A DNA stretch of 64,000 bases from Carallia brachiata (Eukaryota; Streptophyta; Magnoliopsida; Malpighiales; Rhizophoraceae), in contig JADCRB010000068.1 in the NCBI GenBank assembly GCA_021464245.1, positions 13,927,351 through 13,991,350 on the forward strand, given 5' to 3'. Below, one piece after another: positions 5,164 to 28,827 of the stretch (position 1 is its first letter; each line of letters begins with the position of its first letter). The notes beneath the pieces were generated by a model. It saw nothing but the letters and a program-made list of their open reading frames with translations. It had not been told where the DNA came from and made no database searches. The position numbers were made by a program, and so were the translations under genes.

Positions 5164-7205
5164 TCCCCCTTCAAACTCAAGTTGGATCGACTAAAACTAA
5201 TTTGAGTTTGCAAAGTAACTCATAAGAATGGCCTGGAGGGTGTATCTTCATGAATATATTAGCAGGCTAATCTACTGATGAAATAAACTGTAAGTGTATG
5301 ATCCCACTATTGATATGTTAGTGGATGAAGTGACAATTAGTCTCAATGTGCTAAGTACACTCATGAAATACGTCACTATAAGCAATCTAAATAGTGCTCT
5401 AATTGTCACAATGCAGTATAGTTGGACCCACAAACAAAACACCCATATCAGTGAGCAATCAATGAAGCCAAATAAGTTCAGCTGTTGCATCAGCTAATGC
5501 ACAATACTCTGTTTCAGTACTAGAGTGTGCTACTATTGATTGTTTATTATTGCTTCAAGAGATAAGAGAGTTACTAAAAAAGAAATAAAAACTAGTAGTA
5601 GAGCATCTATCTGTAGGATCTCCAACCCAACTAGCATCCAAAAAAGCCTATAACTGAAGAGTAGAATGGGTAGAAAAGTGAAGCCCATGAAATAAAGTTC
5701 GCTTGACATATCGTAGCATGTGAAGAACAACTACAAAATGAGTAGATCTAGGAGCAGTCATGAACTGACTAATTAGATGAACTGTATAAGCAATGTCAAG
5801 ATGAGTGACTCTAAGATAAACTAAACTTCCAACTAGCTAATGATTCAGAGTGGCATCACTAAGAAGCGTACCATCAGCTGGTGTAGGCTTAAAATTTATC
5901 TCAAGGGGGAAGGAAACAATCTTGCTCTTTGAAATACCAACTTGAGAAAAAAGATTTGAGACATACTTGGCTTGAGAGAGAAAGTAACCATCAATGCTAG
6001 AGAATACTTTCAAGCCCAAGAAATAACTGAAAGAACCCAAAATTTTTAAGCTACAAAATGGTAGAACTGAACTTGGCAAACCAAGCCTGAGGAGCTTGTT
6101 TAAGTCCATATAATACTCCACGAAGATGACAAACCTTGTAAAGATGATGCTGATAGCTAAGAGGAGGCTACATATAGACTTCTTCATTTAGATCTCCATT
6201 AAGAAATGTATTCTTGACATTCATTTGAAATAGCTTCCACCACCGTATGGTGACAACTGCCAATAACGAGTGAACAGATGTAAGACGAGCCACAGGAGCG
6301 AATGTCTCCTCATAGTCAATACATACTCCCGAGTGTACCCTTTAGCAAAAAGAAGAGCCTTATATCATTCAATAGAACATCTACATGAGTCTTAATCTTG
6401 TGTACCCACTTACTTCCTATAAGAGACTTTCTTGGAGGAAGATCAACTAGATCCAATGTATGAATCTTTTCTAATGCCTCAATCTCTTGAGACATAGCAC
6501 GCTGCTAAGAAGGATTTGAGCTGGCTTCTCTCTAGGATGTGGGTTCATGTTAGGTGGCAACAATAGAATAACAATGGAAATCACGTAAAAGAACTGAAGG
6601 TTCACGTATCCAAGTAAAATAACGAGGTACAGGAGGTATGGGAGGATAATTTGAAGGCTGTGGTGAGTGAGAAGCATCAAGCTGTGATGAGTAAGGTACG
6701 TCAAGCTGTAGTAGTGAGTGAGGAGCATCAGACTGTGGTGAGGAAGGTATGTCAAGCACTAGTGTAGGAGGTGCATAAGGCTAGTCAGGAACCTCAGGCT
6801 GTGACTACGAAGGATCAACAATCTAGTCGAGTTTGTTGGGAAAAAGGGCAAAGTGGTCGCCTGTTGAGATAACATCACCTGCACCAAAAGAAGAGTCTGG
6901 AAAAAGATCGAGTGAGGGATTAGTAAACAACTTGGGAGACGGTGTAGGAGTAGGTGAAAAATTGACTAAACAGGTAAACATTTTGTGTTCCCAAAAGATG
7001 ACATGACGAGAGATGCGGAATCTGCTAGAAATAGGATCATAGCATCTGTAACCCTTATGTTGAATATCATACCCTAGAAAACAACATAGACGAGCTCGAG
7101 GTTCTAATTTAGTGCACTCATGAGATTGAAGAAGAACAAAAAAGGCACAACCAAAAGTTTTATGAAGATTATAATTAGGTAATTCTTTGTTTGTAGCTAT
7201 TCTCA
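5164..7205 (-). pseudogene. Ty1/Copia polyprotein remnant (integrase end, reverse transcriptase, RNase H)
   Basis: Decayed pol read from high to low coordinates. About 7190-6960 holds the integrase C-terminal core (FGCAFFVL, ARLCCFLGY, KGYRCYDP, RISRHVIFWE). About 6640-6570 holds the WIREPSVLLRD-FHCYS linker typical of Copia. About 6490-6390 is the start of reverse transcriptase (IEALEKIHTLDLVDLP, SKWVHKIKTH). Near 6020-5930 are GSFSYFLGLKV and YVSNLF. About 5520-5400 is RNase H (ETEYCALADATAELIWL, LHCDN). Many stops and frameshifts break it, and gag, protease and most of the integrase are missing. At about 7205 it passes abruptly into Gypsy gag, so its 5' part was lost by deletion or recombination. 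Confidence 0.85.
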
Positions 7206-7833
7206 ATTGTCGATTAATTCTGGTTCAAGGTTTATGAACCAAGTGAAGGCGGTATCCTTGAGTAAACGAACGAACTATTTCACTAAGAAATCCCCATAAG
7301 TTCCTGCGTTATTGCAGGTTTCGACAAAATAAGCGATGTTCTGTTGTTGAAATTTGGGTGGTTGGTACCCAAAGGCATGCTGAAATTTTCAATTCGCCTT
7401 GTATATAGTTTGACTTACATATGCGATCTTTGGAACAATACAATTTGCTGAAAGCAGATTGTACAGCAAATTGTATTAGCTATCATGTTCTGCAATTGTT
7501 GAACAGATTGCGAGGCTACATAATTTGAATGTGATATTGTGTAGAACTGTCTGGTTGCTTTTCTGCAATGAAGACGTCAGCTGATATTACTTCTGGACTG
7601 AAACCGAGTGGATATGGTTGCTCCTCGCGAGTCTCGAGATCAACTTGAATCGGGACTTTTCCTTTGAGATTAGCGATCTGTTGATCTTTTTCCTTCAAAA
7701 CTCTAATTAGTTGCGACATTCTATTCTCCAACTCTACAATCCTTTCCTCTGTGTTGGTTGTGTTTGCCATCGCGACTGCGATGACGTCGGTGTTGGCAGA
7801 TGATGCTTCATGAAAGACTGGGGTAGAAGGCAT
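7206..7833 (-). pseudogene. Gypsy gag fragment, relative of the 15.6-kb gag
   Basis: The minus-strand frame from ATG 7833 is clearly homologous to the gag at 15571-16942. Both have NTE(E/D)RI-ELE-R, EKDQQIA-LKGK, PIQVDL and ADVF-AEKQP. Further down, out of the first frame, GYQPPKFQQ, YFVETCNNAGTYGD and FTWFINLEPE match the same gag, with an in-frame TAG and an internal deletion of about 8 codons where the 15.6-kb copy reads FDGRGDP. The match stops at about 7206, where Copia integrase sequence begins. It is a dead capsid-protein gene of the element whose 5' LTR is at 8392-9200. Confidence 0.85.
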
Positions 7834-8391
7834 TTCTACTTCCTCCTTGCTTGTTTCTGTGGAATGGGTCGACTTCTAGTGTTGTGCGAGCTTTGTCACA
7901 TTGCCCCTGACTTCGATTGGGGTGGATGATCGACTTCTCTATTCGTCGAGAGAGTTGGGAAAAAGATCTTATTGCTGAGTAAGCTGCAAATTCTCCATCT
8001 CGATATTCTGTTGTGTTTGGATTGCGAGGAATTATGTTCGTCCGTAAGTTTCTAGACTTGCATGCCTAGATAGGTAGTTGATGCAAACAATGGAACAATT
8101 GCCTTTCTGCTGGTGGCGGTAGTAGTCGTGCTCCTCTTTGATACCATTGTTGTACTAAATACATGTTAGAGAATTCATTTTCTTCTTTTTTTTTTCTTTT
8201 TTTCTCTTTTTCTTTTTCTTTTTTCTTCTTTTGTCTTTTCCTTTTTTTTTGTTTTTTTTTATTTTTGTCCTTTTAATTTTTTTCTTTTCTTTTTTTTTCT
8301 TTTTTCCAGCTTCTTTTCTTTTTCTTTTTTCTTTTTTTTTAAAGAACAAAAAATGAGAGATCAAGATATCACACCGAGTGTGTTAGAAATT
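7834..8391 (-). other. Leader of the minus-strand Gypsy element, with a low-complexity tract
   Basis: This lies between the 5' LTR and gag. The bases next to the LTR (minus strand 'aatttctaacacactcggtg', 8391-8372) align with the primer-binding region of the 14.6-kb element ('aatttttggcacgttcggtg'). 8177-8340 is an almost pure pyrimidine tract (purine on the minus strand), whose Lys-rich translation is meaningless. A minus-strand 'atggtatcaaagagg' at about 8152-8138 begins a short open frame (MVSKRSTTTT) that may be the original gag start. Confidence 0.55.
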
Positions 8392-9200
8392 TGTAAGGAC
8401 TGTAAATTTCGAACCTGCAATAATTAGACTAAAAAATATAAGTACAAATTACAAATAAAAATTTTAAAATAAAATAAAATTGAGGTGGAGTCGATCTTCA
8501 TTCGAATCTTCTGATTGGTGTTCTTTCGTAATTCAGTCAAGAGCTGTACAAACTTAATCTTGACAGAAATAAATTCCACAATTTTATCTTGAATTGAATA
8601 AGTTCTGCCTAGAGTAGGGGCTGGATCTCGAGCAGATTCTCAAACTACGGTGAATATTGTAGAGATTTGATTTCGATTGAACTGACTTGATTTCACTGAA
8701 AACCGTATGAACTTATTCTCAGATGAGTTGACTGAACTTTACTAAAGACTGTATGAGGTTTAATCTTAGACATATTTTTAATATTTTAATATTTTATATT
8801 TATACTCCAGCATATCTCACTTGGTAGCGACCAGAAAGTATACACCCAAAATATGTTTAGAAATGAGTATATTAAATATTTCGGGTTTTATACCTAAAAT
8901 ATTTCTTTTAATAGTGTTTAGAGAGTACATGAACAAAATACAAAAATGTAGGGAGAGGGAATTGGAAATTCAAATGAAATTCCAAAATGTTTTGAAATGT
9001 TTTCCGACGCATTTGCCGGGCACCAAATAGCCTATTTATAGCCTTTTTGGGTGATACTGTGCCACCAACTACGAAAGATATTTATTATTTTCTTTTAATT
9101 TTTTTCCTTCTTCTAAAAGCTGGCCATTAACTTAAAATTTTTTTCTCCTTGTAGATGCTGGCCATTGACTTTTCCTTTTCCTTTTTTTTTTTTATTTACA
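8392..9200 (-). repeat. Gypsy 5' LTR (minus strand)
   Basis: The minus strand starts TGTAAATAAAAAAAA and ends '...gttcgaaatttacagtccttaca', matching the ends of the LTRs at 14569 and 19653. A TATAAATAGG motif lies at about 9040-9031. Length is 809 bp, compared with 827 for the solo LTR and 902 and 945 for the intact pair. The outer flank is TAGAT (9201-9205). No partner 3' LTR was found at lower coordinates, consistent with truncation by the Copia segment. Confidence 0.78.
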
Positions 9201-14563: not shown

Positions 14564-14568
14564 GAAGT

Positions 14569-15470
14569 TGTAAACACTAAAAAAAAAAAAAAAAAAAAAT
14601 CAATGCATGCCCTACATGAAAGCAACAAGTGCATGCATATGAAAATGATGATTTCTATTTGGTTGATGACCATGCAAAATGTCAAAATTCAACCACCAAA
14701 GAGGGTCCTTGCCTTGTAGGATCATACTCATGATGAATCATATGGAAATTTTAATTTCCATTTGATTGCAAAATGTCAAAATTCAACCACCAAAGAGGGC
14801 CCTTGCCATGTATGATCCAAGTCATACAATTTTGGCATCCATTCTCCCCCAAAACCCTATAAATAGGGATCCCCTCAAAGCCTTTCAATCCATCCCAAGT
14901 AAAGCAAATCATTCATCTTCTAAAGCTTTGCATCTCTTCCTTTCTCTCTCTAAATATTTTAGGTGTATGCTCTCTAACTGCCACTAAGTTGGATCCGCTA
15001 GATCAAAAACCCAAGATATTAAATATCCGAGTGGGATCAAGTCTCCTACGGCCCTCACCGGAGTCCAATCAATTCGAGTGGGATCAAGCCTCCTACGGCC
15101 CTCACCGAAGTCCATCCAGTCCGAGTGGGATCAAGCCTCCTACGGCCCTCACCGAAGTCCATCCAGTCCGAGTGGGATCAAGCCTCCTACGGCCCTCACC
15201 GGAGTTCAACTAATCCACTTGAGATCAAGCCTCGGCCCTCAGTGGGATCTATTTCCTACAGTTCAAGTTCACGCTGTGGAAATTCACCATCTCTCGGTCA
15301 AAATTAAACCTTCACGGCCCTTGACTAAATTATACAGGAGCATTAATCGGAGGATCTACCCAGAGATCGACCCCACATAAACTTCTTTTTATTTTACAAT
15401 TTTTTTTATTGTAATTTGTTTCTGTATTTTTGAGTCTAACTGTTACAGGCTCGAAATTTACAGCTTCACA
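14569..15470 (+). repeat. 5' LTR of the homeobox-carrying element
   Basis: It starts TGTAAACACT plus an A-run and ends ...CTTCACA. A TATA box (TATAAATA) lies at 14858-14865. Two imperfect internal copies of a block containing 'caaaatgtcaaaattcaacc' occur around 14675 and 14770. Four 47-bp tandem units starting 'gagtgggatcaag' occupy 15029-15216. Short open frames here are translations of that repeat. Confidence 0.95.
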
Positions 15471-15490
15471 AATTTTTGGCACGTTCGGTG
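15471..15490 (+). other. Primer-binding region next to the 5' LTR
   Basis: The sequence directly after the LTR (aatttttggcacgttcggtg) is where the tRNA primer should anneal. The same position in the minus-strand relative at 8391-8372 is similar. It is not the common initiator-Met type (TGGTATCAGAGC), and I cannot name the tRNA. Confidence 0.5.
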
Positions 15491-15570
15491 GGACCTCTCC
15501 GCCTCCCATCTTTTGCTCCTCTACAAAAAAAAATTAGCACGAATCCAACATCAACGTTGTCACAATCACG

Positions 15571-16942
15571 ATGACAAGCGCAACGAACACTGAAGACAGG
15601 ATTGCAGAATTGGAAAGCAGAATTTTCCAACTGCTCAAAACTGTGGAAGAAAAAGATCAACAGATCGCTGCCCTCAAAGGAAAAGCTCCAATCCAAGTTG
15701 ATCTCCAGACCCACGAGGAGCGACAATATCCACCTGGTTTCACTCCAGAAGCGACACCAGCCGATGTCTTCAATGCTGAAAAACAACCAGGTAGTTCTAC
15801 ACAGCTGCCACCCTCAAATTCTGTAGCTTCGCTATCTGTTCAACAATTGCAGGAAATGATAGCCAATACGATCCGACTGCAACAAGCTACATCCTTCCAA
15901 GGATCACAGATGTACGTCAAACCGTACACCAGACGGATCGAAAGTCTCAACATGCCTCTGGGCTACCAGCCGCCCAAATTTCAACAATTCGACGGACGAG
16001 GCGATCCCAAACAGCACATCGCCCACTTCGTTGAAACCTGCAACAATGCAGGGACTTACGGAGATCTCTTGGTGAAGCAGTTTGTTCGTTCACTAAGGGA
16101 GAACGCTTTCACGTGGTTCATAAACCTTGAACCAGAATCAATCGACAGTTGGGAACAGCTACAACGAGAGTTTCTCAACAGATTTTTCAGCACTCGGAGA
16201 ACGGTGAGCATGATGGAGCTTACTAGTGCCAAACAAAGGAAAGGAGAGCCCGTTGTCGAATACATCAACAGATGGCGTGCTCTCAATCTAGACGGAGACT
16301 TCTGCTGTGGAAATGTGCATCCAAGGGATGCACTGGGAGCTATTATACATCCTACAGGGCATCAAACCTCGAACTTTTGAGGAATTAGCAACTCGAGCGC
16401 ATGACATGGAAATAAGCATCAAGACCTCTGGAGGCACGATTCCCATCCAACTGGGCCAACATGGGGGCAAGAAAGTGATGACCATTGATGCTTCACCGAT
16501 AAAAGTTGGAGCTAAAGCAAAAATGAGTCCTCCAGCGCTGGCAAATCAACCAGAAAAGGGAAGGATGACCTTGCGAGAGTTGGAACAGAAGAAGTATCCA
16601 TTCCCCGACTCCGACGTTCCAGACATTCTCGATCAACTTTTAGAAGCTAAGTTGATCAAACTCCCGGAATGTAAGCAACCCAATCACAAGAATCAGGTCA
16701 ATGATCCAAAATTTTGCAGGTATCATCGCACAATCAACCATCCAACCGAGAAGTGCTTCGTCTTAAAGGAGCTGATCTTGAAGCTCATAGACCAAAATAA
16801 AATCAATTTGGACCAGGGAGACATAGTCTCAGTCAACCAGACTGCCGTCCCTTCAAATTCGTCAAAAGAAAGTCAACATGAAATTACGCTTGCATGCTGT
16901 CAACGCATCCCGACCTGGTTTGATCAAACGGTAAACTTCTAA
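15571..16942 (+). pseudogene. Gag (capsid/nucleocapsid) with one frameshift
   Basis: Frame 1 opens at ATG 15571 with an N-terminal coiled-coil-like stretch (RIAELESRIFQLL, EEKDQQIAALKGK). It continues into the retrotransposon gag core: GYQPPKFQQFDGRGDP, HIAHFVETCNNAG, FTWFINLEPESIDSWEQL, REFLNRFF and VVEYINRWRALNL. At about 16290-16300 the frame shifts by one base, and the protein continues in the next frame through VEMCIQGMHWELLYILQGI and FEELATRAHDMEI to the stop ending at 16942. Near its end CRYHR...HPTEKC is the degenerate Cys/His motif that precedes protease in many plant Gypsy elements. Protease itself does not follow. Joined, it would be about 457 aa. Whether the shift is a lesion or programmed is unknown; the position suggests a lesion. 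Confidence 0.88.
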
Positions 16943-16950
16943 AATTTACT

Positions 16951-16988
16951 GTGTAAAAAAAAAATAAAAAAAGGAAAAAAAAAATTCA

Positions 16989-17020
<32 letters not shown>

Positions 17021-17570
17021 AAAAAAAAAAAAGAAAAAAAATTCGAAAAAAAAAAACAAAATAAAAATAAAAAAGAAAAAAAAAAAAAAAAAAATGTCTG
17101 AAACTTATGTGCAAGTTCAGAACCCTTTCTCAAAATCCAAATCTAGATTCGGGGGCAGATCTCAAACCCCGATTCAAAACCCAACAAATCCAAATTCGGG
17201 GGCAAAATCCAAGTCCGAACCCAAATTCTAGTTCAAAATCCAAGTCCAAATTCAAACTCGGGCCTAAAGCCCAAATTCAAATCCAGGCCCAAAAAGCCTA
17301 AACTCAAACCTCAGCCAAAAGCCTAAATTCACCAAATCTAAACTCGGGCTCAAAACTCAAATCCAAGTTCCAACTCATAGCCTAAATCCAGATTCGGGGG
17401 CAAAGCTTAGACCCTGAATCAAAACTCAAGTCAACAGCTCACCAAACAGCTCACCAGCTCAGCAACTCAGCAGCCAAGCAGCTCAGCAGCTCAACAGCTA
17501 AGCAGCTCAACAACTCACCAGCTTAACAGCTCACCAGCTCGCCAGCTCAACAGCTCAACAGTTCAACACA
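16951..17570 (+). repeat. Low-complexity tracts inside the element
   Basis: 16951-17094 is nearly pure A with some G. 17100-17430 is a degenerate 'aaatccaa(g/a)t...cgggggcaaa' repeat. 17436-17565 is a short CAGCTCA(A/C) minisatellite. Nothing here looks coding; it occupies the position where pol would be expected. Confidence 0.8.
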
Positions 17571-17965
17571 ACACTCCTGCCTCGCACGAGTATAAAAGGC
17601 GACATCACAGTTGAACACTCCTGCCTCGCACGAGTATAAAAGGCGACATCACAGTTCCACACTCCTGTCTCGCACGAGTATAAAAGGCGACATCACAGTT
17701 CAACACTCCTGCCTCGCACGAGTATAAAAGGCGACATCACAGTTCAACACTCCTGTCTCGCACGAGTATAAAAGGCGACATCACAGTTCAACACTCCTGC
17801 CTCGCACGAGTAAAAAGGCGACATCACAGTTCAACACTCCTGCCTCGCACGAGTATAAAAGGCGACATCACAGTTCAACACTCCTGCCTCGCACGAGTAT
17901 AAAAGGCGACATCACAGTTCAACACTCCTGCCTCGTACGAGTATAAAAGGCGACACTACAGTTCA
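17571..17965 (+). repeat. Nine 44-bp tandem repeats, eight with a TATA box
   Basis: Units begin at 17571, 17615, 17659, 17703, 17747, 17791, 17834, 17878 and 17922. The consensus starts 'acactcctgcctcgcacgag' and continues TATAAAAGG, then 'cgacatcacagttca'. Unit six has lost a T from the TATA core and is 43 bp. A degenerate tenth unit follows at 17966. The units are almost identical, so the array is recent or homogenised. It lies immediately upstream of the homeodomain ORF and may act as a promoter array; this is inference. Confidence 0.92.
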
Positions 17966-18011
17966 CCAAACTCCTGGCCCGCATGAGTATAAACTGTGAA
18001 CGGCCCAAAAA

Positions 18012-18018
18012 TATAAAA
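18012..18018 (+). promoter_or_regulatory. TATA box nearest the homeodomain ORF
   Basis: TATAAAA, 95 nt upstream of the ATG at 18107 and just beyond the 44-bp array. The homologous ORF in the other element has TATAAA at nearly the same distance (32481, about 100 nt before ATG 32380). The shared spacing supports an internal pol II promoter separate from the LTR. Confidence 0.55.
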
Positions 18019-18106
18019 GCAACGGAGGGTTTGAGTCTGAAACTCAGCATCAGTCTCAACCGATCTTCACCACACACAAGACCTTTGCTCCTCTGCCGCA
18101 AGAAAG

Positions 18107-18487
18107 ATGGAACCAGTTGCAGAACCTCAAGACAAGGGAGAAGAAAGGTCACCTCGCACAAGGTGGCAACCGACCATGGCACAACTGCAAATTTTGGAGG
18201 AAGTCTTCTACAACGATGGAGGTATTGTCCCTAACTCTACACAGATTCTCCAACTTGTCTCACGACTTCGCCCGCTAGGGGCAGTCGAAGGAAAAAATGT
18301 ATATTTTTGGTTCCAGAATCGGAGACATAGGGAAACAGTGGCGCTGAGAGATGGTATTTCCAAAGCACAGCCTGTTGTTCCTATAGTAGATCTCACCAGT
18401 ACAGCTTCACCCTCAAATGAAGCCGGCCCAAGTTCTACCACTGCAATGGTCTCTCCACGGTACGTTCATCAAAGCCGTAGCCTATAG
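18107..18487 (+). CDS. Retrotransposon-borne WUSCHEL-clade homeodomain protein
   Basis: A 126-aa open frame. Residues 17-82 form a WUS/WOX-type homeodomain: it starts RTRWQPT, has QLQILEE in helix 1, the extra loop residues typical of WOX proteins and EGKNVYFWFQNRR in helix 3 with the invariant W-F-x-N. The EGKNV signature matches the modern (WUS) clade rather than the WOX13 or WOX9 clades. Residues 93-97 (IVDLT) look like a SUMO-interaction motif. In plants WOX proteins are nuclear regulators of stem-cell identity. The ORF lies wholly inside an LTR element with exact target duplication, so it is cargo and not a normal host locus. It ends at TAG 18485-18487, and the same frame stays open beyond it (next entry). 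There are no introns, as expected after passage through RNA. The ATG is the first in frame after the TATA array. Confidence 0.88.
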   Translation: MEPVAEPQDKGEERSPRTRWQPTMAQLQILEEVFYNDGGIVPNSTQILQLVSRLRPLGAVEGKNVYFWFQNRRHRETVALRDGISKAQPVVPIVDLTSTASPSNEAGPSSTTAMVSPRYVHQSRSL

Positions 18488-18733
18488 GAGCATACATACT
18501 GGTCCTGGTGGTTTCACGGAGTCAGCCAAGGGTTCATCCCTCCTAGATACTTAAGTCTAGGAGGAATTTTTCTAGCACACAGGAGTCATTCCGGCGAAAT
18601 TTTGCCTCTCTTTCCAGAATATTCCGGCAGCATCAACCAGCCGGAAAGCGACGTCAACATCATCGGCCCACCAGACGAGGTCGAGCTTGACTTGGAGCTG
18701 CCTCGGGCCCCGCTAGGACGGCCGACAAGATAA
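18488..18733 (+). pseudogene. In-frame tail of the WUS-like gene: WUS-box and EAR motif after an amber codon
   Basis: Directly after the TAG the frame stays open for 81 codons to TAA 18731-18733. It encodes ILPLFP (18599-18616), which matches the core of the WUS-box (TLPLFP), and 28 codons later LDLEL (18686-18700), an LxLxL EAR repression motif. In WUS-clade proteins these two motifs follow the homeodomain in this order. Their survival in phase with the homeodomain shows that the ancestral cargo was a complete WUS-like protein of about 209 codons. Either a single nonsense change truncated it or the TAG is read through. The second copy at 31749-31867 keeps the same two motifs. Confidence 0.8.
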
Positions 18734-18734
18734 G

Positions 18735-18812
18735 GTGCAACGACTTTGCAGCACACGGCAACGACTTCTGCAGCACACGGCAACGACTTCTGCAACACAC
18801 GGTAACGACTTT
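18735..18812 (+). repeat. Short 22-bp tandem repeats
   Basis: Three to four imperfect copies of 'cacggcaacgacttctgcag' directly follow the WUS-like frame. They differ in sequence from the upstream 44-bp array. Confidence 0.75.
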
Positions 18813-19637
18813 CGTGTCACGCGTCAGCCGCTGCCTCTTTTGTCTCTTACAGGAAAGGGACGTGGATGGCCCTACTCGATTCTGCGTACCTTCTTTTTGA
18901 CTTTTCAAAAAAAAAAAAAAAAAATCTTTATTATGTATATATATCTTGTATTCCCGAGTTACAATACTCACCCCTCAGCTCTTCTTTCTCAAAAAAAAAT
19001 GGCTAGTCTCTGCACTTGTTCAGGAAGTTCTTCGATCAAGAAGTTGGAGGCGCACGAGCTAAGAAAAGAGGGAGTAGTCTTCTTCGAGGGATCCCTAAAA
19101 CCTCGAAACTCAGTCTCCAACGCCATCGGTGTCATGGAGTTCCAACTACTCTCCTTAGTTCACATCTACCACAGAGGGATGAGAAGCTGCAATTATCCTA
19201 ATCTTTCTTTGGATGCAGCGACGTACAGGGAAGTTCCAACTACTCTCCTTACGTCGAAGCAGACTTGGAAATCATCACTACAGTCAGTCTCTCTGTGCGC
19301 GGTCTTAAAGTTCCAAGTGCTGGGCCTTCCTCTTGGGGAGGTTCAAGTTCTTTGCCTACCGGATCATCCTCACCAGAGCTCTGGAACTTTAAGAGATATA
19401 AAAAATCCTTTGCGGGCTATGGAAGCTCGAACGCACCTGGAGCCAAGCTTCAATTTTTATATTGGCTGGGCTGCTAATTTCAAGATCGTATCGGATTCCT
19501 ATTGCGATCCAACAACAGCAGGCATGGTCAAAGATAGAAGACTCCAACATTCAACGTTCATTAAGACATCTCAAGTTTCAAACTGGACTTCAAGACTCGG
19601 TTCGGATCATTACGGTAAAATTTTCCTTACCGACCCT
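18813..19637 (+). other. Non-coding 3' interior of the element
   Basis: No recognisable domain. 'agttccaactactctcctta' occurs twice (about 19138 and 19230), marking a local duplication of about 90 bp. A long open frame across 18735-19640 starts inside the 22-bp repeats and has no family resemblance, so I do not call it a gene. Confidence 0.55.
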
Positions 19638-19652
19638 TGAAGTGGGGGCATT
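19638..19652 (+). other. Polypurine tract
   Basis: The G-rich run 'tgaagtgggggcat' abuts the 3' LTR and is the expected plus-strand primer site. Confidence 0.75.
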
Positions 19653-20597
19653 TGTAAACACCAAAAAAAAAAAAAAAAAATCAATGCATGCCCTACATGA
19701 AAGCAACAAGTGCATGCATATGAAAATGATGATTTCCATTTGGTTGATGACCATGCAAAATGTCAAAATTCAACCACCAAAGAGGGTCCTTGCCTTGTAG
19801 GATCCTACTCATGATGAATCATATGGAAATTTTAATTTCCATTTGATTGCAAAATGTCAAAATTCAACCACCAAAGAGGGCCCTTGCCATGTATGATCCA
19901 AGTCATACAATTTTGGCATCCATCTCCCCCAAAACCCTATAAATAGGGATCCCCTCAAAGCCTTTCAATCCATCCCAAGCAAAGCAAATCATTCATCTTC
20001 TAAAGCTTTGCATCTCTTCCTTTCTCTCTCTAAATATTTTGGGTGTATGCTCTCTAGCTGCCACTAAGTTGGATCCGCTAGATCAAAAACCCAAGATATT
20101 AAATATCCGAGTGGGATCAAGTCTCCTACGGCCCTCACCGGAGTCCAATCAATTCGAGTGGGATCAAGCCTCCTACGGCCTTCACTGAAGTCCATCCAGT
20201 TCGAGTGGGATCAAGCCTCCTACGGCCCTCACCGAAGTCCATCCAGTCCGAGTGGGATCAAGCCTCCTACGGCCCTCACCGAAGTCCATCCAGTCCGAGT
20301 GGGATCAAACCTCCTACGGCCCTCACCGGAGTTCAACTAATCCACTTGAGATCAAGCCTCGGCCCTCAGTGGGATCTATTTCCTACAGTTCAAGTTCACG
20401 CTGTGGAAATTCACCATCTCTCGGTCAAAATTAAGCCTTCACGGCCCTTGACTAAATTACACAGGAGCATTAATCGGAGGATCTACCCAGAGATCGACCC
20501 CACATAAACTTCTTTTTATTTTACAATTTTTTTTATTGTAATTTGTTTCTGTATTTTTGAGTCTAACTGTTACAGGCTCGAAATTTACAGCTTCACA
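19653..20597 (+). repeat. 3' LTR of the homeobox-carrying element
   Basis: It is nearly identical to the 5' LTR but carries five 47-bp units (20109-20343) instead of four, which accounts for most of the length difference (945 versus 902 bp). The TATA box is at 19938-19945. It ends CTTCACA, followed by the target duplication GAAGT. Confidence 0.95.
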
Positions 20598-20602
20598 GAA
20601 GT

Positions 20603-26082: not shown

Positions 26083-26898
26083 TTAGAAAATGTCGAGAAT
26101 CTCGAGGATTGATCGGTTGCAGAGGGGACAAGAGCCTCGGTTCAACCAAATCTCTCTCGAGCACACCCTGCAGAACGTGTGCCCACATGGGATGAACGCC
26201 GCTCCCTTTTTTCTCCCCATGCACACGCAGCACGCCCTATCGCCGCCCCCCTTCTCCTCCTCCTCCTCCTCCGCCTCTGCCTTCTCGTCGCATCTTCCTA
26301 TCCCTCCGTGTCCGCCGTCCGTTTCCTCCAGCAGCCTCATCAACGACACCCTCCACGGCGTTCCAGGCTCCGCTGGACTCATCTCGGTGTCGCCGCCGTT
26401 CGTTGACCCGTTGATTCTTGCCATCATACTGTTGACTTCCCGGAACTGTCGCTCCGCCGCCAGTGCCGCCGCCAAGTTCATCCCGGAGCTAGCTGGAATT
26501 GGAGCGGGCCCCAATTCCAAACAACCCGGATCCGATCCCCTCCCAGCTGGGGCCTCATCTATGCCTGTGACCTCCTGAACGTCCTCTAATATTATTGCCT
26601 CCTCCTCCTCCTCCTCCTCCTCCTCAGGTAGCGGTAGCGGTAGAGGAGACGGAGGGCCCTCACCTTCGAAGTCATCGTCGTCCCTGATGCTGCCCCGGGT
26701 GGCCCCACAACAACCAAAGCCTTTAAATCCGAACCGTTCTTTCAGAGTGGTCCTCGTTCTTCTCCTCCTCATGCTCCTTGCATCTACTACACCGTCCATT
26801 TGGCCTCTCAGGAGGAGCAACCCAAGAATAGTTGTGGCGGTGGCTTCTCTATCTCCTCCTACCGATTCCTGCAACATCAGAAGTCCCAGTTGGCTCAT
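26083..26898 (-). CDS. C3HC4 RING-finger protein (probable E3 ubiquitin ligase)
   Basis: A single uninterrupted frame of 271 aa from ATG 26898 (MSQLGLL) to TAA 26085-26083. A later in-frame ATG (MDGVVDARS, about residue 34) could be the real start. The C-terminus is a RING finger: CCVC, then an 11-residue loop, CGHTFCRVC, a 10-residue spacer and CPLC, which gives all eight zinc ligands in C3HC4 order. The protein ends ILDIF just after it. Upstream are a basic TLKERFGFKGFGCCGA block, a run of nine Glu encoded by a CCT/CTC repeat and an acidic/Gly-rich middle. RING proteins bind E2 enzymes and transfer ubiquitin; the substrate cannot be inferred. There is no signal peptide or membrane span. Plus-strand frames over this region are shadows of its GC-rich coding sequence. 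Confidence 0.85.
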   Translation of the reverse strand: MSQLGLLMLQESVGGDREATATTILGLLLLRGQMDGVVDARSMRRRRTRTTLKERFGFKGFGCCGATRGSIRDDDDFEGEGPPSPLPLPLPEEEEEEEEEAIILEDVQEVTGIDEAPAGRGSDPGCLELGPAPIPASSGMNLAAALAAERQFREVNSMMARINGSTNGGDTEMSPAEPGTPWRVSLMRLLEETDGGHGGIGRCDEKAEAEEEEEEKGGGDRACCVCMGRKKGAAFIPCGHTFCRVCSREIWLNRGSCPLCNRSILEILDIF

Positions 26899-28827
26899 CT
26901 GCACTAACTATTACTCGTTTACGGACAGAACGCCCCAACAAGCATGTTATCACAAAATAAAACAGAATAGACAGAAAGAATAATGAATATACGTACGTAC
27001 GTGCTTAGGTTTATTGATGAGAATGAAAGTGGTTTAATCTGTGCATGGAATTCCCGTGAGAGATTAATTGCATCCAAGAACAACGTGACTTGGAGAGCGA
27101 TTCCAATTTAATAGACGCCGCCGTTTGCGTTTTCAATTTCACCCCCGGCTGGCTCCTTCTAATTGTCCAATTCTTTCAACTCAGCCTCCCTCATGGGGGA
27201 TGCAAATGACTATCAAAGAGTGAGTGTGTGTGATTGGATTTCTAATGGTCGAGGGAGGCCTTGGGTGGACTGGAGTGTTAATAAATACTCCATTAATATT
27301 ATAGTGCCTCTCCTCTTAAGAGCTCGACGACCATGCATACGCCAATGCCAAATTGCCAATGGCGAGAGAGTTCCGTCATTGAAGTTTGAAAGCAGCAGGG
27401 CACTTTATTGGATTTTGGAATTGCATGCCTTTGAAGCAACTAACACAGTTCAGGACAAACCAGAAATTATAATTTTATGGGTCCGTAGCATTTTCGTTAG
27501 ATCATTACTATGCACTTATATAATTTTTGACAAATAATTAATTTAATAATTAATTTTTAAAAAATTTAATACATTTTTTGTAATTTACCTTTTTAAATTT
27601 TTACGTATCAATTTGTCTTGGTTATTGCTAAGCTATGTAACTTTTTCCTTTTCTCTTTATGCCGGTTGTTCTTTTAGTTACAACAAAAGTTGATTTGCAC
27701 AGCATTGAGCCAGAAGCCAAGACATCAGAAAAAAAAAAAAATTGTAATAACACTAAATATATTTAAACTAACATTAAACACATTTAAAATTTAATTTTTA
27801 AAAAATAAAAAGCATCTATACTTTCTCACAAAATCTTGTGTCCACCAAACAAAACTTTTTTAGTTATTGAGACTTTCAAAATTTTTTTAGAGAAATAAAA
27901 TAAAATAAAACAAACTTTTGAGCAGACTAATTTATAAGGATACGCTATTACCTAGTCAATATCCTAACATTAAAAAAAAAAAAAAAGAAACTATTTTTTG
28001 ATTAATGATTAATGATGATGATTAGGATATATAATTAAGCTCCTTGTTTGTTCTTTGGCAGTAATGCAAGTTACTTGGCGCCGGCCAAAATGGGAGTCAA
28101 AGGCCATCGAAGCCGGCGCAGGAAGCGTCATCGAGGTCCATCCAAAACCAAGTTCCAGGTGGCGGTCCCTCTTATTGCTATCTATTTTTGCTAATCAAAT
28201 AATTAAACCATTGCGATTGGTTGGCATTGCCAGTGCCTTTTCTATCTAGTTCCACTACATTTATTTTATTTTATTTTTGGCTACATATACATAGTTCTAC
28301 TAGTGCTTGTCACGTTTAGTGAACCTTGGAGCATTGCATTTTTCTCATCAATTTCTTTAAATTAAATTTAAAATATGAAGATTGGAATTATTAGTGTATG
28401 TGTCGGGAACCTTTGGCTAGACAGTAGACATAGATCACAACGGAGCTTTTTTTCTTATTATTATTATTACTCATTTTATTTTTGTTTGTTAATGCGTTGA
28501 GGAGGTCCAAATTGAAGTGTATGGTTGGTCGGCCCGACAGGAGAGAAGCAGCTGTATTTCATATACTGCCAAAGAAAATCTGGTTTAATTTTTTACATCT
28601 CTGAAGACGTGGTTAATTGGTGATGGTCTCTGAGCTTGTTGATTGTGATCAGCAGATTGTTGTTATCATCGTATAATTAAGGTAGGCTCTAAAACTCTAT
28701 CAACGCGGATAGGATGAATACGTCAATTGCTAAATGGTGGAATATTTATGGTAGAATTATCTAAACTTTTAATTTTAAGTTTAGGGTTCGATCTATAGTC
28801 CCTACAAATTAAAAAAATGGTGGATTA
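26899..28827. other. 5' side of the RING gene and intergenic DNA
   Basis: About 26990-27150 would be the promoter and 5' UTR of the RING gene; it includes a (TACG)n-like 'tacgtacgtacgtg'. A small basic frame (MGVKGHRSRRRKRHRG, ATG about 28089) is not recognised and is not called. The rest is AT-rich. Confidence 0.5.

Follow-up and report, generated by a model that had tools for sequence, protein, structure and literature searches.

The 64,000-nucleotide stretch of Carallia brachiata DNA analysed here (the window; assembly GCA_021464245.1, contig JADCRB010000068.1, positions 13,927,351 to 13,991,350) contains, on the plus strand at 14569-20597, a recent, pol-less copy of a long terminal repeat (LTR) retrotransposon of the Ty3/gypsy type, within which lies a WUSCHEL-like open reading frame (ORF), referred to as the cargo. 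The element is bounded by an exact target site duplication (TSD), GAAGT, at 14564-14568 and 20598-20602, and by paired LTRs on the plus strand, a 5' LTR of 902 bp with TG...CA ends (14569-15470) and a 3' LTR of 945 bp (19653-20597), which show 9 mismatches over 898 aligned bases, the 5' LTR having been taken a few bases too long. Following the 5' LTR, again on the plus strand, are a presumed primer binding site (15477-15494), with one difference, as compared by eye, from that of the pol-bearing copy L065, and a gag gene (15571-16942; Retrotrans_gag, E 5.6e-11) whose frame, when judged against the gag frames of two pol-bearing copies, is broken near 16290. An A-rich tract (16955-17095, plus strand) lies downstream of gag, and a presumed polypurine tract (19640-19652, plus strand), the sequence of which, AGTGGGGGCATT, also occurs in the copies L061, L063, L064 and L066, precedes the 3' LTR. 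No pol domain was found in the five frames of the element that were scanned. The exact TSD, the paired LTRs, the single frameshift of gag and the lack of pol had all been described in the original prediction, which was made from the letters of the window, and are confirmed here.

The cargo ORF (18107-18733, plus strand) carries a homeodomain, a WUS-box and an EAR motif. The homeodomain, 63 residues long as delimited in this analysis (18161-18349, plus strand), matches its Pfam model with an E of 1.4e-9 and has the WUSCHEL homeodomain as its best solved relative (E 2.1e-16), followed by that of STENOFOLIA. The WUS-box core LPLFP (18602-18616) and the EAR motif LDLEL (18686-18700) follow on the same strand and in phase with the homeodomain, the Pfam EAR model giving an E of 0.091 only, below its cut-off. 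These motifs and their phase had been correctly predicted, but a TAG within the frame of the window copy, at 18485-18487 between the homeodomain and the WUS-box, had been missed. Two versions of the cargo were sampled across the genome, the Y-type, to which the window belongs (30 loci, chosen by likeness to the window cargo), and the F-type (20 loci, chosen by likeness to a WOX2 protein), and neither sample is random. An uninterrupted frame that spans the homeodomain, LPLFP and LDLEL is present in 25 of the 30 Y-type loci, the broken window copy being counted among the 30, such that the ORF is whole in 25 of the 29 other copies. A WOX-type homeodomain together with a WUS-box of the form TLxLFP characterises the WUS clade of WOX proteins, and the cargo possesses both, its WUS-box reading ILPLFP in the Y-type and TLPLFP, TLSLFP or ILPLFP in the F-type; the TLxLFP motif was also seen in the aligned WOX proteins. 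The positions equivalent to R38, W39, Q89, N90 and R94 of WUS, which read DNA or anchor the arm in WUS crystal structures (PMC7203112), are kept in all three of the cargo proteins aligned. In an AlphaFold model of one intact relative the three-helix domain is confident (pLDDT 94-97 at residues 21-70) and the remainder is of low confidence, and the 11 structures matched by this model at E <= 0.001 are all homeodomains of WUS or STENOFOLIA. It is considered probable that the cargo encodes a functional protein, and the gene is most likely an accessory transcriptional repressor, a putative role read from its motifs.

The search covered a genome of 337.5 Mb in 164 contigs from this one species, and bears out the proposal that a WOX-type cargo has been multiplied by an LTR retrotransposon. 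Of 1243 candidates for the cargo DNA, the 40 best were scored, and every one of these, window included, is 99-100% identical over the whole cargo, which has 627 bases in the window and 629 in most of these 40 copies. A 33-base pattern for the recognition helix occurs at 834 sites with up to three mismatches, compared with none for the reversed control, and the F-type version of the helix at 642 sites with up to two mismatches; these counts might include a few host WOX genes, nine of which were found. Conserved cargo at distinct TSDs had been named beforehand as the mark of a real cargo family, and exact, differing TSDs are present in five of the six window-type copies fetched (the window included), those of the four further copies, read by eye from the flanks, being TACAT, GGGCT, TAAAT and ATTAG, all of 5 bp. 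The sixth copy, L063, lies in tandem and its 5' flank is unreadable. For L063, and for L066 with L064, the element was seen to stand in tandem, next to a second cargo and LTR. The four further window-type copies all have a whole cargo. Two of them also possess a long, open gag, a third has it split, and none was found in the fourth. LTR divergence in five window-type copies is 0.009-0.020, which corresponds to 0.34-0.76 My at the assumed substitution rate of 1.3e-8. Nor does the LTR family lack the homeobox ORF elsewhere, as 9 of the 30 sampled Y-type loci, the window among them, are of the window type and carry it.

These nine are the Y-type loci without integrase, and the window copy belongs to a pol-less group. 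For the family as a whole, the description of the cargo as standing in place of pol is wrong, given that integrase sequence lies upstream of the cargo in 39 of the 50 sampled loci (Y-type, 21/30; F-type, 18/20); two of the 18 integrase-bearing F-type loci hold only part of the integrase, and the other two of the 20 have gag instead. A search from the integrase side took the 40 best of 981 candidate sites, a non-random sample chosen by likeness to one copy, and found the cargo downstream in 36 of the 39 sites checked (19 by coordinates, and 17 of 20 others fetched that contain the helix DNA, 14 of these with the open motif; one site was left unchecked), which indicates that the cargo gene is a regular part of a pol-bearing lineage. 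In L064, a pol-bearing relative of the window element and the sole copy in which pol was scanned, the order of domains is RVT_1, RT_RNaseH, RVT_3 and integrase. A ribonuclease H domain (RH) followed by a second such domain (aRH) before the integrase is the layout described for angiosperm Tat-clade elements (PMC6317226), and the presence of both in this one copy assigns it to the Tat clade of Ty3/gypsy. A position of aRH between RH and integrase, as observed in L064, is one mark of the Ogre and Retand subclades, the subclade itself being told by the reverse transcriptase tree, the primer binding site, the TSD and the extra ORF. L064 does not conform to Retand elements with an antisense TRP28 ORF (PF04195), in which the region from pol to the 3' LTR that holds this ORF measures 2.9-6.6 kb: this region is about 2.1 kb in L064, no antisense ORF longer than 126 aa is listed for it, and the seven of its ten listed antisense frames that were scanned gave no Pfam match. 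That a Tat-clade accessory-gene family with WUS-type cargo is real is regarded as nearly certain.

Alignment of a pol-bearing relative with the window element is limited to the cargo block, the A-rich tracts and the LTR ends, together with gag in the adjoining stretch. Since the presumed primer site, the polypurine tract and the LTR ends are common to window-type and pol-bearing copies, the pol-less window-type copies are probably mobilised in trans. The integrase is under strong constraint, with a ratio of nonsynonymous to synonymous differences (pN/pS) of 0.05-0.18, and mainly because of this an active source element, and with it an autonomous copy, may be supposed to exist. A further stretch 3' of the cargo, at 19101-19310 in the window and 4990-5198 in L064, is near-identical between the window-type and the pol-bearing copy, more so than its surroundings.

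The cargo homeodomain is 46-48% identical to two host WUS-like genes (the host genes were labelled WUS and WOX1-5 by our own comparison), and the cargo is accordingly no host WOX locus reproduced from end to end. In L039, a WUS-like gene of the host, the homeodomain and the WUS-box are encoded by two different ORFs some 1.2 kb from each other, whereas the cargo has both in one frame; on this ground the cargo resembles a spliced, mRNA-like copy, which fits the originally proposed capture of a WOX mRNA and suggests that the gene was captured from a spliced mRNA of the WUS type. Two traits of WUSCHEL proper, an extra residue in helix 1 and a C-terminal LELxL, are found in the cargo, the latter being present in the alignment in the cargo, the WUS-like rows and the protein P0001 only. 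The homeodomain has 63 residues in the cargo, the WUS-like rows, P0001 and one Chenopodium WOX2-like protein, compared with 62 in host WOX1-5; because of the Chenopodium protein, this length is not unique to WUS. P0001, a protein of 161 aa, combines a homeodomain with TLPLFP and LELSL and sits on a long branch; it may be a WUS of its host that has diverged, or else the product of a further gene carried by an element. In the homeodomain tree the cargo sequences cluster together (99/94) at the end of a long branch, and the donor is not singled out, the approximately unbiased tests rejecting none of WUS, WOX1, WOX2 and WOX5 as its partner (p 0.34-0.41). The protein database yielded 5 and 73 matches, all with a homeodomain and with 28-56% of the query aligned, and no near relative of the cargo among them, and neither relatives of the cargo nor of the integrase were found in IMG/VR. 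Two WOX5-like genes of the host share 86-92% identity with a pair of Bauhinia variegata proteins across the homeodomain exon, and a neighbouring glycosyltransferase reached 64% at best among the 120 of 3305 matches listed.

Upstream of the cargo, a TATA box, TATAAAAG, lies at 18012-18019 on the plus strand, 95 bp 5' of the ATG, and TATAAAA(G) recurs at -83 to -96 from the ATG in 46 of the 50 cargo loci, the start codon of the other four not having been located by the script. Further upstream, at 17570-17968 on the plus strand, is a TATA-bearing tandem array of 44-bp units, eight of which contain TATAAAAGG. This sequence is present four to five times in four other window-type copies and is absent from three pol-bearing loci, and the array is possibly a promoter array.

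Comparison of whole Y-type and F-type cargo ORFs gives a pS of 0.19 and a pN of 0.10 (0.26 and 0.11 for the homeodomain), against a pS of 0.047 for the integrase upstream of the two cargo types, and between L006 and L060 the integrase is identical over nearly 700 bp where the homeodomain is 73-89% identical. Given these divergent homeodomains on near-identical integrase backbones, the homeodomain part has been exchanged between elements. Relative to L006, the cargo in 20 pol-bearing Y-type loci has accumulated 2.1 substitutions and 0.33 indels per kb, compared with 42.4 substitutions and 4.86 indels per kb in its 3' flank. Purifying selection on the cargo is only weakly supported, and a stronger hint of constraint is seen in the motif order and the contact residues, which are kept at 46-49% homeodomain identity to host WUS.

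The explanation that we favour, with moderate confidence, is that the spliced mRNA of a WUSCHEL-type gene was taken up by a Tat-clade Ty3/gypsy lineage and has been retained there as an accessory gene, in sense orientation between pol and the 3' LTR and under a TATA promoter of its own, the product of which would be a repressor directed at the host; pol-less relatives such as the window copy carry the same gene and are probably mobilised in trans. WUSCHEL sets the fate of shoot stem cells, and its WUS-box and EAR are motifs for co-repressors. The cargo protein, if expressed, would most likely enter the nucleus, where its homeodomain would bind WUS-type DNA sites and its WUS-box and EAR would recruit TOPLESS-type co-repressors, and any benefit to the element would likely arise in trans, on host genes, in meristem cells from which the germ line derives. 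A host-directed meristem role is nevertheless put forward tentatively, with something over one chance in three; it is ranked first because of the WUS motif set and the lack of a TGAA excess in the LTRs. More specific, and improbable as it stands, is the suggestion that the element-borne WUS-like repressor holds or reprogrammes cells as meristem-like and germ-line-competent, or blocks silencing there, such that new copies are inherited.

Several results weigh against this explanation. Synonymous sites of the Y-type cargo are also little diverged (pS 0.0044), on which account a recent sweep, conversion or homogenisation of the cassette contributes to its low divergence, and, apart from the TATA, the 140 bases 5' of the ATG have changed more than the cargo in pol-bearing Y-type loci, with 20.5 substitutions and 8.6 indels per kb. 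Within the genome the pN/pS of the cargo is only 0.38-0.49, as calculated on the 21 of 30 Y-type and 17 of 20 F-type loci with enough integrase, whole or broken; the corresponding rate ratio dN/dS is 0.46-0.59 for whole cargo ORFs and 0.38 for the Y-F homeodomain, figures that took whole ORFs only and hence a biased choice. When one Y-F pair was simulated under neutrality with transitions taken into account, 347 of 2000 runs gave a value at or below that observed, and neutrality is not rejected. The ORF is whole in just 5 of the 20 F-type loci, some with variant motifs, and broken in the other 15. For three of the 39 integrase sites that were checked, the fetched piece contained no cargo, and no copy with an unbroken pol was seen, pol running across three frames in L064 and L062 and L061 being partly masked. 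Single TGAA motifs are not in excess in the LTRs, with 13 seen and 13.9 expected in the window LTR and 5 seen and about 9 expected in pol-type LTRs. One pol-bearing copy has flanks, ATCAT and AGCAT, that differ by a mismatch, and its LTRs are 87% identical with gaps counted, making it older; another has an N within its flank.

The weak pN/pS signal, the simulation and the broken F-type copies would all be expected if the captured gene were a passenger, multiplied only by the multiplication of the element and with no function of its own, and the indels of the Y-type cargo, none of six of which is a multiple of three compared with 21 of 97 in the flank, point the same way. Against this stand the occurrence of the cargo beside nearly all checked integrases and in two backbone groups, the recurrence of its TATA box, the whole ORFs in both cargo types despite their synonymous divergence, the F-type indels, of which 15 of 38 are multiples of three compared with 16 of 117 in the flank, and the contact residues and motif order described above; a gene without function is judged rather unlikely, at a little over one chance in four. 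At about one chance in four, it is also unlikely that the protein binds the LTRs or internal promoter of its own element and tunes their transcription in the manner of a retroviral accessory regulator. Such a role has been proposed for accessory genes of plant LTR elements (PMC11963269, PMC7264820) and would suit the TATA-bearing 44-bp array of the window copy, as well as an excess of TAAT in two pol-type LTRs (14 seen, 7.2-7.5 expected; reached by 3-4 of 300 shuffles) and a slight one of close TGAA pairs in the window LTR (3 seen, 1.04 expected; reached by 24 of 300 shuffles). However, six motifs were compared on five stretches, so that weak excesses mean little, single TGAA, the core preferred by WUS, shows no excess, and the LTR groups that flank the same cargo share only about 213 bp at 76%. 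Regulation of the LTRs through TGAA sites is unsupported, and self-regulation is placed second, behind the host-directed meristem role. A single chance insertion, or a WOX locus of the host that just happens to be flanked by two LTRs, would account for the single copy seen in one window, but it is vanishingly improbable: copy number and distinct TSDs rule out the former, and the single frame of the cargo and its distance from host WUS speak against the latter.

TR-GAG elements have LTRs and gag without pol, as does the window copy, and we know of none with a homeobox cargo. In the literature searched, which consisted mostly of the openings of abstracts and lay outside most subscription papers, preprints and supplements, no homeobox gene was found described as the cargo of a retrotransposon, and within this scope the supposition that such cargo is undescribed holds. 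No word beginning with "homeo" occurs in the main text of PMC9289625, PMC11963269, PMC7264820 or PMC6317226. The first of these reports a screen of 121 angiosperm genomes with 15 unusual domains in frequent consensuses, and neither "WUS" nor "WOX" appears in its main text, supplements aside. It also describes orchid Ty3/gypsy elements of 25 kb that carry an AlkB-type RNA demethylase ORF (PMC9289625), which resemble the present family in that a plant Ty3/gypsy lineage bears many copies of a host-type gene that is suggested to be functional, and differ in the gene, the size of the elements and their restriction to orchids in that account. Retand/Grande-type elements of the Tat clade likewise have an accessory ORF, and tandem repeats, in the interval from pol to the 3' LTR and include some non-autonomous members (PMC11963269, PMC7264820), and the accessory gene of Grande is said to have its own promoter, according to a title cited in PMC7264820. 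In the account of these elements, wherever such an ORF has a known domain it runs antisense and is mostly TRP28, and no sense ORF of that region encodes a known domain, unlike the cargo, which is a sense ORF with a homeodomain (PMC11963269). In maize Bs1 and other LTR elements with transduced genes, host coding sequence has likewise been captured, usually in sense, but these are cases of one or a few copies (PMC7264820), compared with the hundreds here that are linked to a pol-bearing lineage.

The known range of accessory genes in the Tat clade is widened by this family to include a sense ORF whose DNA-binding domain is a known one and whose origin from a host can be recognised, and the idea that accessory proteins regulate transcription becomes testable through a well-studied homeodomain. 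A WUS-like gene in a multi-copy retrotransposon would link the inheritance of the transposon to the stem-cell niche, in which insertions bound for the germ line must occur, and through the family the host would gain potential WUS-like loci by the hundred. A mobile element may, on this reasoning, have taken over a tool that controls the stem cells of plants. Were the stem-cell-regulator reading true, the element would correspond, in plants, to a retrovirus that has transduced a developmental oncogene, and the exchange of Y-type and F-type homeodomain cassettes would amount to an arms race over DNA targets.

Elsewhere in the window, a diverged relative lies on the minus strand at 7191-8806, about 72% identical to the LTR and gag of a pol-bearing copy, and is adjoined by a copia-type fragment (SH3_retrovirus) at 6823-7224. 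Host genes are represented, both on the minus strand, by an exon of a terpene synthase at 709-1164 and by a gene for a RING-finger protein at 26083-26907.

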